Part shown: in pieces, positions 3,256 to 17,697 of the stretch | Layout: each line of letters starts with the position of its first letter | How positions within the stretch are numbered: position 1 is the first letter of the stretch | Source: Parcubacteria group bacterium GW2011_GWA1_40_21 | GTDB lineage: Bacteria; Patescibacteriota; Minisyncoccia; Phycocordibacterales; GWA1-40-21 | NCBI GenBank assembly: GCA_000996205.1 | Contig: LBYO01000015.1 | Coordinates: forward strand, 1-32,965 | DNA: 32,965 nucleotides | Direction of reading: 5' to 3' | Notes under the pieces: model-generated | Told to the model about the DNA's origin: nothing | The model's database searches: none | What the model saw: the letters and a program-made list of their open reading frames with translations, nothing else | Made by a program: the position numbers and the translations under genes

Positions 3256-4767
3256 CTAAACCTCTCTCAATACTTTTATTTTCGCGCCGAGATTATTTAA
3301 CCGTTTTATTATGTCTTCATAACCGCGGTTTATGCTGTAAATATTTCTAAGAATTGACACTCCTCTCGCGCCAAGCATTCCGATAAGTATTATCGCCGCC
3401 GGTCTTAGGGCGGAGGGGCAGATTATCTCGTTCGCCCTTAGTCTGGTCGGTCCGGTGATATAGATGCGGTGCGGATCGGCGAGAAGAGTTTCAGCTCCAA
3501 GCTTATCAAGCTCGGCGTAATAGCTTGCTCTCTTTTCATACACCCAGTCGTGAATCAATGTTTTTCCTTCCGCCTGCGTGGCTATGACGGCGAAGTAGGG
3601 GAGATTATCTATGTTCAGCCCCGGATAAGGGCGGGATTCTATCTTGTCGTCAAGCGCCGTCAATTTTGAGGGATAAGTTTTTATATCAACAAGATTAGTT
3701 CTTTCATTTTCGGCTTTGTATCTCTTTATAATCTTATATTTGAAATCCATCTTCTCCAGTTTAAGAAGTTCAATTTCCAAAAAATCAATGGGGCATCGTT
3801 CTATCGTGATTGATGAGTTCGTTAAAATCGCCGCCGAAATAAAAAACATTGATTCAATCGGGTCTTCGCTCAAACAATACGATACAGGAATATCTATCTC
3901 TTCTTTTCCGTGAATAATGAGTGTCGTTGTTCCAATTCCTTCAATTTTCACTCCGAGTTTTTCCATAAAAAAACAGAGTTCTTGGACTTGATAATTGGCC
4001 GAAGCGAATTTGATTACTGTTTTTCCGGCAATCTTCGCCGCCGCCATTATTGCGTTTTCCGTCACAGTGTCGCCCGATTCGTAAAGAACGATTTCATTTG
4101 GAGTCAACTTGCCTACGCGGATTTCGTATCTATCCGTTCTCGCTTTTATGTCAACTCCCAGTTTTTCCAGAGCGAAGAAGTGAGGCCTTACAGTTCTTGA
4201 ACCGAGCTTGCACCCTCCGGCTTGCGGAAGGTCAAATGATTTGAAGAGATGAATGAGAGGGCCGATCATCATTATCACGCTTCGCGTTCTTATGGCTGAT
4301 TCTTTGTTTATTTTTGAAAGCGATATTTTTTTAGGCGGGACGATATGAAGATCATTTCCGTTCCATTTGGCGGAAACGCCGATGCTCTCCAAGACTTCAA
4401 TTATTCTGTAAACCTCTTCAATCTTTGGAACATTCTTTAGAACCGTTTTGTTTTTATTGAGAAGGGAAGAGCATAAGAGTCCGACAGCGCCGTTTTTTGA
4501 AGTCTTTGTTTTAACAGTTCCGCTAAGCTTCGCTCCGCCCTCAATCTGGATATTTATCGCGCCGTCAGAGACGCTCACGATATCCTGATCCAAAGTGTCG
4601 CTTATTTTAGAAAGCATAACAGTGCTTAAATTCTGCTCGCCATTTTCAATCCTCGCGATGACGCTCTGCGATGTGCAAAGCTTTTCCGCGAATCGCTCTT
4701 GAGTGATGCCCCTCTCCGCCCGCAGTTTTTGGATAAGTTTCCCTATGTGCGCCAATTTTTTATTCAT
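3256..4767 (-). CDS. murA: UDP-N-acetylglucosamine 1-carboxyvinyltransferase (MurA) with N-terminal XRE-type HTH domain
   Basis: 503 aa; N-terminal LIQKLRAERGITQERFAEKLCTSQSVIARIENGEQNLSTVMLSKISDTL is a typical XRE HTH; the rest is MurA-like, with AGGCKLGSRTVRPH in the catalytic Cys loop. Confidence 0.9.
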   Translation of the reverse strand: MNKKLAHIGKLIQKLRAERGITQERFAEKLCTSQSVIARIENGEQNLSTVMLSKISDTLDQDIVSVSDGAINIQIEGGAKLSGTVKTKTSKNGAVGLLCSSLLNKNKTVLKNVPKIEEVYRIIEVLESIGVSAKWNGNDLHIVPPKKISLSKINKESAIRTRSVIMMIGPLIHLFKSFDLPQAGGCKLGSRTVRPHFFALEKLGVDIKARTDRYEIRVGKLTPNEIVLYESGDTVTENAIMAAAKIAGKTVIKFASANYQVQELCFFMEKLGVKIEGIGTTTLIIHGKEEIDIPVSYCLSEDPIESMFFISAAILTNSSITIERCPIDFLEIELLKLEKMDFKYKIIKRYKAENERTNLVDIKTYPSKLTALDDKIESRPYPGLNIDNLPYFAVIATQAEGKTLIHDWVYEKRASYYAELDKLGAETLLADPHRIYITGPTRLRANEIICPSALRPAAIILIGMLGARGVSILRNIYSINRGYEDIIKRLNNLGAKIKVLREV

Positions 4768-13116: not shown

Positions 13117-13180
13117 TGTGCTACAATTACTGAAACTATCTTATGCCTCAAATTTTGACGATAATTTTTGTTTTTTAACA

Positions 13181-14152
13181 ATGAAAAAAGATAATTTCAA
13201 AAAAGGGGAAATAATAATTTACAAAACTTCAAAAAATGAGGTTGATTTAAAAGTGCGTTTGGAAGATGAGACAGTTTGGCTTGATGCTCATCAGATAAGC
13301 AATCTGTTTGATGTAAATAGGCCTGCGATAGTGAAGCATATTCAAAATATTTATAAAACAGGGGAGTTAATTGAAAAGGCAACCTGTTCCATTTTGGAAC
13401 AGGTTGCCGCCGATGGAAAAATTAGGAGAATGAATATTTATAATTTGGATATGATTATTTCTGTCGGCTACAGAGTTATTTGGGCGACTAAAACATTGAA
13501 AGACCATTTGATTAAAGGTTATACAGTAAACGAAAAAAGATTATTGGAAGCTCGCGAAAAATTCAACGAATTGCAAATGGCTATCTCTTTTTTGCAAGAA
13601 AAATCCAAGAAGGAATTGTTGAGCGGACAAGCAGGGGAGATTTTAAACTTGCTTTCCGATTACGCCAAAACACTGACTATCCTTGAACAATACGATAAAG
13701 GACAGCTCAAAGAATCAAAAGGCGGGAAAACAAAATTTATTTTGGAATACGGCGCTTGTTTGAAAATAATAGCTGAATTAAAAAAAGAATTGGTCATGAA
13801 AAAAGAAGCAAGTGACTTGTTTGGAAATGAGAGAGACGGAAGTTTTGAGGGTATTATTAAAGGTCTTTACCAGTCATTTGGCGGAAAAGAACTGTATCCA
13901 TCAATAGAAGACAAGGCATCTCATCTTCTTTATTTCATCATCAAAGATCATCCATTTTCTGACGGAAACAAACGCTCCGCCGCTTTTTTGTTTGTGTACT
14001 TCTTGGACAAAACAAATTTTCTTTTCAAAAAATCCGGCGAAAGAAAGATAAACGACAACGCTCTTGTAGCCTTGGCGCTTCTTGTCGCCGAAAGCGATCC
14101 GAAAGAAAAAGAAACAATGGTAAAAATTGTTAAGAATCTTTTGGCGGAGTAA
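13181..14152 (+). CDS. RhuM-like N-terminal domain fused to Fic/DOC domain
   Basis: IIIYKTSKNEVDLKVRLEDETVWLDAHQISNLFDVNRPAIVKHIQNIYKTGEL and NLDMIISVGYRV / WATKTLKDHLIKGYTVNEKRL are RhuM-like; HPFSDGNKRSAAF matches Fic HPFxxGNxR. Confidence 0.88.
   Translation: MKKDNFKKGEIIIYKTSKNEVDLKVRLEDETVWLDAHQISNLFDVNRPAIVKHIQNIYKTGELIEKATCSILEQVAADGKIRRMNIYNLDMIISVGYRVIWATKTLKDHLIKGYTVNEKRLLEAREKFNELQMAISFLQEKSKKELLSGQAGEILNLLSDYAKTLTILEQYDKGQLKESKGGKTKFILEYGACLKIIAELKKELVMKKEASDLFGNERDGSFEGIIKGLYQSFGGKELYPSIEDKASHLLYFIIKDHPFSDGNKRSAAFLFVYFLDKTNFLFKKSGERKINDNALVALALLVAESDPKEKETMVKIVKNLLAE
13377..13409. repeat. Perfect inverted repeat inside the RhuM-Fic coding sequence
   Basis: GGCAACCTGTTCCA-TTT-TGGAACAGGTTGCC at 13378-13408 (14-bp stem, 3-nt loop). 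Confidence 0.9.
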
Positions 14153-14161
14153 GACAAAACA

Positions 14162-14890
14162 ATGACCACCTCATTCAAAATAAAAACTGAAACATTTGAA
14201 GGGCCGCTTGATTTACTTCTTAATTTGATAGAGAAGAGGAAATTGTTTATAAACGACATTTCTATTTCTAAAGTGGCGGATGATTACATCGCGTATATAA
14301 AAAACTTGAATAAATTTCCGATAGGGGAGAGCGCGAATTTTATTCTTATCGCCTCAACTCTGCTTCTTATAAAATCAATCTCTCTTTTGCCGAATCTTCA
14401 TCTTTCAGAAGAAGAGGAGCATGATATCAAAGACCTTGAAGCCCGTCTCAAACTTTATCAAAAAATAAAGGAATTGAGTTTTGGAATCAAAAAAATTTTT
14501 GGCCACAATATCATCTTTTCTCCTCTGGCAAGAAAAATAAATCCTGTATTTTCACCGGATGAAAGCATTACTCTTTCAAATCTGCTTAATTCGGCGCGCG
14601 ATGTTATAAGAAATATTCCGAAGAGTGAAAATCTTCCCAAAGCGGTCGTCAAAAAAATCATAAGCCTGGAAGATGTCATTGAAAATCTTACCGAAAGAAT
14701 CAAGACGGGCTTGAGTATGAATTTCAAGGATTTTGCGCAAATTGGAAAAGAAGATAAAATTAATATCATTGTGAGCTTTTTAGCAATGCTTGAGCTCGTG
14801 AAGCAAGGGGTGATTGAAGTGATTCAAGAAAATCAGTTTGATGATATTAAAATGCAGACGCAGGAAATGACCACGCCAAGATATGCTTAA
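14162..14890 (+). CDS. scpA: Segregation and condensation protein A
   Basis: FKIKTETFEGPLDLLLNLIEKRKLFINDISISKVADDYIAYI and FLAMLELVKQGVIEVIQENQFDDI are ScpA signatures. Confidence 0.93.
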   Translation: MTTSFKIKTETFEGPLDLLLNLIEKRKLFINDISISKVADDYIAYIKNLNKFPIGESANFILIASTLLLIKSISLLPNLHLSEEEEHDIKDLEARLKLYQKIKELSFGIKKIFGHNIIFSPLARKINPVFSPDESITLSNLLNSARDVIRNIPKSENLPKAVVKKIISLEDVIENLTERIKTGLSMNFKDFAQIGKEDKINIIVSFLAMLELVKQGVIEVIQENQFDDIKMQTQEMTTPRYA

Positions 14891-14916
14891 TTATTTTGAA
14901 TAATTTCAATATGGAA

Positions 14917-14922
14917 TATAAT
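14917..14922 (+). promoter_or_regulatory. Candidate -10 box for the R-M cassette
   Basis: TATAAT 11 nt upstream of the methylase ATG (14934), in the scpA-methylase gap. Confidence 0.4.
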
Positions 14923-14933
14923 TAATTATAAAT

Positions 14934-16343
14934 ATGGCAACATTAAATAGACAATTTGACAGGGGTGTGATTAATGAATTAAAAAACGACACTCAAGCTC
15001 TTCTGTCTTTTTTGCAAGATCAAAATGACGGCACGATTGTTTATGTGCTAGAAAAGTTAGGGAGATTAGAAAATGGATATAGCAAACAGCCATTACTGAA
15101 TTTATTAGACAATAACAACGAAACAATTAGATCACTTGCTATAAAAAATCTTGCAAAAATTGGTGATGTTTCTTTGCTAGACACTTTCGTAAATTTCGCC
15201 AAACAAGACGAAAGCACTGAAGTCAGACGTGAATCTGTTTCCGCTATTGGAAGATTAAGAAATGAAAAGACGATTCCGATTCTTATAAAATTGTTATCAG
15301 ACAATGATCCAAAAGTTGTAATGCAAGCAATAAGAGGATTACTTGTTTTTTCAAGTAATAATCAAGTAAAAAAAGAATTATCAAAACTACTCAATCACCC
15401 AAATGAGTTAATTAAAGAAGTTATCGGTAAAGAAATAAACGGAGTAAGTTATGGTTCGAAAGATAACGGAAAACAGGATGAATTTCCGGCCCATCTTAAA
15501 AATACAATTGTTCAGGGCGATGTCTTGGAAACATTAAAATATGTTCCGGATGAATCTATCCACATGACTTTCACTTCGCCGCCTTATTATAATGCTAGAG
15601 ATTATTCAATTTATCAGAGCTACGATGAATATTTGAAATTTTTAGAAAAAGTTTTTAAGGAAGTTCATCGAGTTACGAAAGAAGGAAGGTTTTTTGTACT
15701 TAATACATCACCGATTATTATTCCAAGAATAAGCAGAGCTCATGCCAGTAAAAGATATCCTATTCCTTATGATATTCATCCGCTATTAGTGAAAATGGGC
15801 TGGGAATTTATTGATGATATTGTATGGGTAAAACCGGAGGCAAGCGTAAAGAATAGAAATGCAGGTTTTTTACAACACAGAAAACCATTAGGTTATAAAC
15901 CCAATGCTATCTCAGAAATGATAATGGTCTACAGAAAAAAAACGGATAAATTGATTGATTGGAATATAAGCCAATACAATTGGGATAAAGTAAAAAAAAG
16001 TAAAGTTGAGGATAAATACGAAACAACAAATATTTGGCGTATTTCTCCCTCGTTTGATAGAGTGCATAGTGCGGTTTTCCCGATAGAGTTGTGCAATAAA
16101 GTAATTAAATATTATTCATTTGTGGATGATTTAATTTTTGACCCATTCGCTGGAAGCGGAACATTAGGCTTAGCAGCAATCAATTTAAATAGGCATTTCT
16201 TTTTAACGGAAAAAGAATCGAAATATATTAGCAGGATGAAAGAGGATTTGATCAGAAACAGCAACTTGTTTGATAAAAAAAATAATCAGCCAAATTTTAT
16301 AGATATTAAAAATTTCATATCATTAAATAATAGAAAAATATGA
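14934..16343 (+). CDS. HEAT-repeat::DNA methyltransferase (N4-cytosine/N6-adenine family, beta-class order)
   Basis: N-terminal helical repeats (IRSLAIKNLAKIGDVSLLDTFVNFAKQDESTEVRRESVSAIGRLRNEKTIPILIKLLSDNDPKVVMQAIRGL); FTSPPYYNARDY motif IV upstream of FDPFAGSGTLGLAA motif I. Confidence 0.9.
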   Translation: MATLNRQFDRGVINELKNDTQALLSFLQDQNDGTIVYVLEKLGRLENGYSKQPLLNLLDNNNETIRSLAIKNLAKIGDVSLLDTFVNFAKQDESTEVRRESVSAIGRLRNEKTIPILIKLLSDNDPKVVMQAIRGLLVFSSNNQVKKELSKLLNHPNELIKEVIGKEINGVSYGSKDNGKQDEFPAHLKNTIVQGDVLETLKYVPDESIHMTFTSPPYYNARDYSIYQSYDEYLKFLEKVFKEVHRVTKEGRFFVLNTSPIIIPRISRAHASKRYPIPYDIHPLLVKMGWEFIDDIVWVKPEASVKNRNAGFLQHRKPLGYKPNAISEMIMVYRKKTDKLIDWNISQYNWDKVKKSKVEDKYETTNIWRISPSFDRVHSAVFPIELCNKVIKYYSFVDDLIFDPFAGSGTLGLAAINLNRHFFLTEKESKYISRMKEDLIRNSNLFDKKNNQPNFIDIKNFISLNNRKI

Positions 16344-17251
16344 CAATAACGGAACAAGTCGCGAAAAACATAATAAGAAAATTACTCAAAGGAGAGGATT
16401 ATAGAATTGAAGTTGTAACACTTATTAACGCAGAATTTTTACAATTTGCCGTTGATTTCTTTAAGAAAATTGTTGATGCAAAACTTAAAAACAAAGGCGT
16501 AACAGCAGATTGGTATAAAAAAGAATTTCTCAATCCCAATTTATCGGCTCGCGACATTGCAATCAATTCGGGATTAAACGAAAAGACAATCCACAACATG
16601 TTTAATTCTTCAACAAAGGAAATTGTTATTGATGCTTCAAATGAACATTACGACACTCTTTATGAAGCGATAAAAAATCTTGTGGACACAGAACACGACC
16701 TTGATCTCACTTTAACTGTTAAATTTAAAGGAGTGAGTGTTGATCTAAATGTTAGCGAAAGTCTAATCGTAATAAATACTTTGGCAGTAAAAAGATCTGC
16801 ATTAAGAGGTGGTTTGTGGAGTACTGCTGGCAAAAGAGTTGAAAAACCTTTAATGCAAACTCTTTGCAAATTATACGGCGTCTCTGAAAGTAATTATTCT
16901 TTAAAAATAAAAGGCAAAGAAATTGAAAAAGATGATTTTGAAAGAGAAATTGATTTTTATTTAATTGAAGGTAAGAATCAATACAAATGCGAGATCAAAC
17001 TAATGGGGCGAGGTAACCCTGAAAGCGCAGATGCGGTTATAGCGCGAGACAGTAAGGTATTTGTGGCAGATAAGCTTTCAGACACAAATAAAAAACAATT
17101 AACCAGTCGAAAAGTCGAATGGGTTGAATTGAGAAGTGATGGCGGCTTTGAGAGATTTGATATTGTTTTAAAAAATTTGAAAATTCCACATACAAAATTG
17201 TCGCATAATGTTGATAAAGAATTAGAAATCATATTTAAAGAAATTTTTTGA
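16340..17251 (+). CDS. Type II restriction endonuclease, CfrBI-like
   Basis: ATGA overlap with the methylase; REIDFYLIEGKNQYKCEIKLMGRGNPESADAVIARDSKVFVADKLS shows a PD-(D/E)xK-like D..ExK layout; adjacency to a methylase supports the call. Confidence 0.75.
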   Translation: MTITEQVAKNIIRKLLKGEDYRIEVVTLINAEFLQFAVDFFKKIVDAKLKNKGVTADWYKKEFLNPNLSARDIAINSGLNEKTIHNMFNSSTKEIVIDASNEHYDTLYEAIKNLVDTEHDLDLTLTVKFKGVSVDLNVSESLIVINTLAVKRSALRGGLWSTAGKRVEKPLMQTLCKLYGVSESNYSLKIKGKEIEKDDFEREIDFYLIEGKNQYKCEIKLMGRGNPESADAVIARDSKVFVADKLSDTNKKQLTSRKVEWVELRSDGGFERFDIVLKNLKIPHTKLSHNVDKELEIIFKEIF

Positions 17252-17259
17252 TTATAATA

Positions 17260-17697
17260 ATGGAACAAGACAAAACAACACTTTCGCTAGACGCTCAAAT
17301 TGAAGGGATACTTTTCTGGAAAGGGGAGCCTGTGCGGGTGAAAAAACTTGCTCAAATTTTAAACGCGACGGAAAATGATATTTTGTCGTCTCTTGAAATC
17401 CTAAAACAAAAACTTGAAGGAAGGGGAATGATTATCGTCTTCAAAGAAGACGAAGTAATGCTCGGAACGACGCCTCAAATGTCCGCGATTTTGGAAACTT
17501 TGACCAAAGAAGAGCTTGTGAAAGATTTGGGCAAGGCTGGACTGGAAACGATATCAATTATTCTTTATAAAGGACCTATTTCGCGGGCTGAAATTGATTA
17601 TATAAGAGGCGTGCAGTCTAATTTTATTTTGAGAAATCTTCTTGTGCGCGGCCTTATAGAAAAAGTGGTCAAACCAATACGAAAAAGTCAAAAATGA
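17260..17697 (+). CDS. scpB: Segregation and condensation protein B, probably C-terminally truncated
   Basis: LSLDAQIEGILFWKGEPVRVKKLAQIL and GLETISIILYKGPISRAEIDYIRGVQSNFILRNLLVRGLIEKV are ScpB signatures; the reading frame then departs into VKPIRKSQK*. Confidence 0.85.
   Translation: MEQDKTTLSLDAQIEGILFWKGEPVRVKKLAQILNATENDILSSLEILKQKLEGRGMIIVFKEDEVMLGTTPQMSAILETLTKEELVKDLGKAGLETISIILYKGPISRAEIDYIRGVQSNFILRNLLVRGLIEKVVKPIRKSQK

Follow-up and report, generated by a model that had tools for sequence, protein, structure and literature searches.

A type II restriction–modification pair probably inserted between scpA and scpB in a Parcubacteria genome

The genes scpA and scpB were each detected in 112 of 118 genomes of the order studied here and are mostly adjacent. 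In Parcubacteria group bacterium GW2011_GWA1_40_21, a HEAT::methylase gene and a CfrBI-like nuclease gene lie between them, which raises the question of how a restriction–modification (R-M) pair came to separate two core genes. With a probability of roughly 0.8, we favour a minimal mobile type II R-M pair that inserted co-directionally into the scpA–scpB gap, carries no gene for its own mobility, and probably relies on read-through of the host operon for its transcription.

The locus and its gene products

The window, meaning the whole stretch of 32,965 nucleotides that was analysed, is contig 15 of a 761-kb genome (97.7% complete, 26 contigs). Its genes are arranged in the order aspS, a small zinc-ribbon-like ORF, RhuM::Fic, scpA, HEAT::methylase, CfrBI-like nuclease, scpB, a D-alanyl-D-alanine carboxypeptidase-like gene and murE, where the names of aspS, the carboxypeptidase-like gene and murE were assigned by inspection. 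On the left, scpA (14162–14890, plus strand; Pfam SMC_ScpA, 1.2e-20) encodes the kleisin subunit of Smc-ScpAB. It is present in one copy in this genome and is 83% identical to its counterpart in G001, the only other genome of the genus. An A+T-rich left junction of 43 bp (14891–14933) leads to the gene for the HEAT::DNA methyltransferase (14934–16343, plus strand; Pfam N6_N4_Mtase, 1.3e-40, and HEAT_2, 5.4e-19). This is followed by the gene for a predicted CfrBI-family type II restriction endonuclease (16340–17251, plus strand; Pfam RE_CfrBI, 5.5e-25; PADLOC REase_II, 1.7e-109) and by scpB (17260–17697, plus strand; Pfam SMC_ScpB, 2.2e-30).

The sequence-only reading from which this analysis started had placed these two genes between scpA and scpB, and the ORFs and their order are as it described, with strong Pfam matches for all four. 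The tight junctions that it reported are likewise present in the sequence. The nuclease ATG is part of the terminal ATGA of the methylase gene (overlap 16340–16343), and the nuclease stop codon (17249–17251) is separated from the scpB ATG at 17260 by a right junction of 8 bp (17252–17259); blastn against other copies of the pair places the end of their common DNA at about 17248–17259. Its phrase 'condensin-loader operon' needed correction, as both Scp proteins belong to the Smc complex as subunits and do not form a separate loader.

Two further observations concern the surroundings of the pair. RhuM::Fic (13178–14152, plus strand; Pfam RhuM, 2.4e-12, and Fic, 1.6e-10; PADLOC PDC-S23, 5.8e-116) lies outside the R-M cassette, between aspS and scpA, so that scpA is flanked by accessory genes on both sides, namely this PADLOC candidate and the R-M pair. 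It is absent between aspS and scpA in G005, G006 and G008. Elsewhere in the window (3259–4767, minus strand), Pfam matches reveal an EPSP-synthase/MurA-type enzyme with a fused HTH_3 domain.

The motif order of the methylase, TSPPY and then DPFAGSGT, is that of the beta class (N4-C or N6-A). In an alignment of 20 methylases these catalytic and SAM motifs are invariant or nearly so, and residues of the N-terminal HEAT region are conserved as well; the HEAT domain appears to be part of the standard architecture of these proteins. The nuclease scores 88.6 bits against PF09516 (RE_CfrBI; cut-off 25), and its residues D205, E218 and K220, which are candidate catalytic residues, are invariant in 25 aligned sequences. 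The best fold matches to its structure model (mean pLDDT 73.6) are the restriction enzymes BsoBI, MspJI and FokI, none of them significant (E ≥ 0.12). Pairwise dN/dS ratios, which are approximate given that dS is near saturation, are 0.03–0.11 for the methylase and 0.035–0.08 for the nuclease, and both genes appear to be intact and under purifying selection. Family matches support the assignment of the pair as a type II R-M cassette of predicted activity.

A promoter of the cassette had been suspected in a TATAAT just before the methylase. The hexamer is indeed found at 14917–14922, but a promoter role does not rise above chance: the 43-bp gap is 91% A+T, TATAAT arises in 30% of shuffles of the gap (P = 0.30), and this candidate was dropped. 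A promoter scan gave none on the plus strand at 14891–14933 and no excess over the region (22 versus 19.5 ± 3.6). Because no plus-strand terminator-like site was found between scpA and scpB, cassette included, expression of the cassette by operon read-through is plausible. The sequence-only reading had gone on to conjecture that scpB expression, for its part, may depend on transcription of the cassette.

The scpA–scpB junction in relatives

Distances between scpA and scpB were compared in 110 genomes of the order in which both genes are on the same contig and strand, and the neighbourhood was read in the 12 genomes of the family. The median distance is 39 bp (n = 110), and that of the window, 2393 bp by HMM coordinates, is the largest of all. 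Gaps of approximately 15–230 bp are found in the family genomes G002, G003, G004, G007, G010 and G011; in G009 the contig ends right after scpA. In G001, the sole same-genus genome, each of the two genes is on a contig of its own and next to other genes; this genome provides no empty site within the genus and underwent an scpA/scpB rearrangement of its own. The nuclease family (PF09516) was absent from the 11 other genomes of the family and occurred in 5 of 397 genomes of the order, in four of them above the cut-off. The GC content of the cassette is 31–33%, against 41–44% in most neighbouring core genes; since scpA itself is also A+T-rich (35% GC), composition alone is weak as evidence of insertion.

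The sequence-only reading had interpreted the pair as an inserted cassette, and this interpretation is borne out by the empty sites in relatives, by the lack of the nuclease from the other family genomes, and by a patchy spread over phyla and domains that is described below. On the two points that it had named as refuting, the relatives do not all share the gene order of the window, and the ORFs do match R-M families in HMM searches. Insertion of the R-M pair into the scpA–scpB gap is well supported.

More than 300 bp separate scpA from scpB in 14 of the 110 genomes, the window included. Where an ORF is present, it is a different one in each case: in G005 a GNAT gene, and elsewhere UDP-sugar-dehydrogenase-like, PNPOx-like, CutA-like, MazG-like and four-helix IVS-like genes or unknown ORFs, with names given by inspection where there was no Pfam support. 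A few of these longer gaps hold no convincing gene. Two family genomes outside the sample of 110 also have genes at the site. In G006 a PEP-utiliser/kinase set lies between scpA and scpB, and in G008 three related pilin-like ORFs lie there on the opposite strand (L030, 4377–5969), one of which was searched against Pfam and had no match. Altogether, unrelated cargo was seen at scpA–scpB in G005, G006, G008, G120, G063, G109, G076, G044, G105 and G108.

As a control, the rpsB–tsf pair had an inserted gene in 0 of 57 genomes (Fisher P = 0.003 versus 14 of 110; 7 of 53 versus 0 of 57, P = 0.005, when the same genomes are compared). The rpsB–tsf distances run from one domain match to the next, so that protein ends outside the matches count towards them, and the absence of inserted genes was judged from the maximum of 382 bp. 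From these arrangements, the scpA–scpB junction seems repeatedly to gain genes, usually different ones each time; calling it a hotspot would take more controls than this single, highly expressed pair.

The same comparisons bear on whether the arrangement is instead ancestral in the genus and functional, the R-M pair and scpAB being selected together, for example by a coupling of restriction to chromosome condensation. The same-strand, tight junctions and the intact genes would fit such co-selection. Empty sites elsewhere, the lack of the nuclease from G001 and all other family genomes, the presence of unrelated genes at this junction in relatives, and the occurrence of the same cassette in unrelated operons (see below) make this explanation extremely improbable.

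The right flank has a peculiarity of its own. Relative to G001, alignments place an 83-bp out-of-frame deletion near 17675 of scpB, which leaves a ScpB of 145 aa, compared with about 207–228 aa in relatives, and removes its C-terminal third. As similarity to the intact frame persists past the deletion, the deletion is either very recent or an assembly error, and the latter is possible. This odd frameshift and the fragmented state of the genome (26 contigs) could be taken to mean that an R-M contig was misjoined into the scp operon. We regard such a misjoin as very unlikely, given that both junctions are continuous, have a plausible coding structure and are far from the ends of the 33-kb contig, and that several relatives have genes at the same junction. 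Loss of the C-terminal part of ScpB would also fit a decay of Smc-ScpAB in this lineage, of which the insertion and the truncation would both be signs. This reading is improbable: the genome has an uninterrupted Smc-type open frame of 774 aa, scpA is intact, and the conserved frame past the deletion speaks for a very recent event or an error. No causal link from the cassette to the scpB truncation can be claimed.

Spread of the pair across lineages

Searches returned 31 relatives of the nuclease, with up to 90% amino acid identity, from unrelated phyla and archaea. The nuclease is 83–90% identical to copies in metagenome-assembled genomes (MAGs) of Ratteibacteria, Altarchaeota, Ignavibacteria, Dehalococcoidia (Chloroflexota), Jorgensenbacteria and Caldisericia; ScpA proteins from different genera of the family that includes the window share only 56–63% identity. 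In the nuclease tree, the window copy groups with copies from Altarchaeota, Jorgensenbacteria, Ratteibacteria and Patescibacteria (support 99/97). Errors in MAG binning could explain some of the hosts but hardly the overall spread, and the pair appears to be horizontally mobile between phyla and domains.

In blastn comparisons with the closest copies, DNA similarity begins at 14924–15033 and ends at 17224–17259. Similarity is thus bounded by the gene edges, and the shared unit is the two genes. No recombinase was found within this unit, which holds the methylase and the nuclease alone, or beside the window copy. Elsewhere the pair also lies close to its neighbours. In L065 it is located between tktN and tktC, the genes for the N and C subunits of transketolase, with gaps of 66 and 22 bp, and in the distant copy L085 between ccmE and ccmF (15 and −10 bp); the flanks of both are confirmed by Pfam. 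It lies 14 bp upstream of glmS in L072 and overlaps a downstream tsaB-like gene by 4 bp in L083; the placement is co-directional in all four. Same-strand neighbours were observed in most copies with readable flanks, by simple ORF calling and with no genome-wide baseline.

A different route is that the cassette travels in larger defence islands or in a conventional mobile element (transposon, plasmid or phage) and that the carrier was later lost. Some copies do have the company that this would predict: an XRE regulator is directly upstream in L061, L074, L077 and L079 and, in a reading of upstream sequences, also in L055 and L069, and defence-like neighbours include a TIR-like gene after L078 and a 947-aa protein after L077 and L079. 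The window copy has no XRE regulator directly upstream and no recombinase beside it, and the shared DNA stops at gene boundaries in all contexts. The nuclease has no match in 50,697 phage and 72,556 plasmid records, and carriage by phage or plasmid was rejected on this count. We consider carriage of this kind possible, though unlikely.

The last approximately 20 bp of the left junction resemble the region upstream of the L062 copy (62 of 5000 shuffles were as good, P ~0.01). That this edge is a relic of an XRE controller was considered and set aside as weak, since the XRE-bearing G122 copy is no more similar to it than shuffled sequence is. An apparent fusion of the L056 nuclease to a NUDIX-like ORF was discarded too, as it is due to a run of N in the scaffold. 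Separately, L077 and L079, from a Melioribacteraceae MAG and a Patescibacteria MAG, share a near-identical block of XRE, methylase, nuclease and the 947-aa protein.

The proposal of CCWWGG as the target site fared less well than that of insertion, as its avoidance in carriers is weak and non-significant: O/E is 0.72 versus 0.88 in the sister G001 (z −1.5), 0.75 versus 0.86 in a second pair (z −1.2) and 1.17 versus 0.97 in a third. Among 187 patterns, TCGA is by far the most depleted in carriers relative to same-genus non-carriers (0.24 versus 0.57 for the window's genome, G000; 0.30 versus 0.87 for G101), and it is depleted again in the carrier G122 (0.38 versus 0.99). RE_TaqI matches are present in G101 and in the genomes of L060 and L065, with a fragment in G122, and none was found in G000; the TaqI-like nuclease and its fragment may explain the depletion in G101 and G122. 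Given these matches, the slight depletion in the TaqI-free carriers L062, L068 and L069 (0.75–0.92, from short flanks only) and the low TCGA of the sister G001 itself, we did not assign TCGA to the cassette.

Other R-M genes were encountered in these genomes. A second type II R-M pair of G000 (L209, 1414–2843, contig 4) consists of an N6_N4 methylase overlapping a MutH-like nuclease, and GATC is under-represented in the sampled half of that genome (O/E 0.49). In G101 (L211, 1459–2814, minus strand, contig 20), LexA, with its DNA-binding and S24 peptidase domains, is fused to an N6_N4 DNA methylase beside an HNH nuclease gene, possibly forming an SOS-linked R-M system.

A route of acquisition and its precedents

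How could a pair that has no mobility gene of its own reach this position? It would settle by recombination at places where insertion breaks no gene, most likely either by homologous recombination through flanking conserved genes or by illegitimate recombination. The former could account for exchange among members of one species. It does not account for a first landing from another domain, for which illegitimate recombination is the probable route. Once in place, the methylase would probably modify its site in the host genome, and the nuclease would cut unmethylated incoming DNA. The pair may be retained through defence value, post-segregational killing or both, and the flanking core genes would make its deletion costly.

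A bolder generalization would see the cassette as a recombinase-free 'operon parasite' of bacteria and archaea, promoter-poor and inserted co-directionally in gaps of core operons (scpA|scpB, tktN|tktC, ccmE|ccmF), expressed by read-through, locked in by the cost of deleting its neighbours, and using scpA–scpB as an order-wide port for cassettes. We regard this extension as rather doubtful.

Insertion of a minimal mobile pair has partial counterparts among known systems. Like the CfrBI system, the window has a nuclease of Pfam RE_CfrBI. The CfrBI genes are transcribed divergently from overlapping promoters that methylation controls (PMC12707154), whereas those of the window are in tandem, methylase then nuclease, with an ATGA overlap, and CCWWGG is not clearly avoided. 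R-M units have been reviewed as mobile elements with target duplication (PMC3874152), and here too R-M genes move between genomes to new loci; a non-exhaustive search at the window copy identified no target duplication, long or short, no inverted repeats and no homology arms. Transposon-borne R-M systems differ in that the window unit has no recombinase gene.

The closest precedent is provided by the minimal mobile elements of Neisseria, in which varying whole-gene cassettes, including type II R-M genes at pheS/pheT, occupy the space between two conserved genes and enter it via homologous recombination (PMC3082526, PMC3898611). In both cases an R-M cassette without a recombinase lies between conserved genes, and the cargo varies by genome. 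The present case differs in that the variation is seen between genera and families rather than strains, the site is scpA–scpB, and the route of integration is inferred. It is a documented example, outside Neisseria and in a genome-reduced bacterium, of a core operon for two subunits that is split by an R-M pair. A junction that repeatedly accepts unrelated genes offers a site at which to ask how recombinase-free defence genes cross between distant lineages, bacterial and archaeal alike, and whether such genes rely on operon read-through for their expression.
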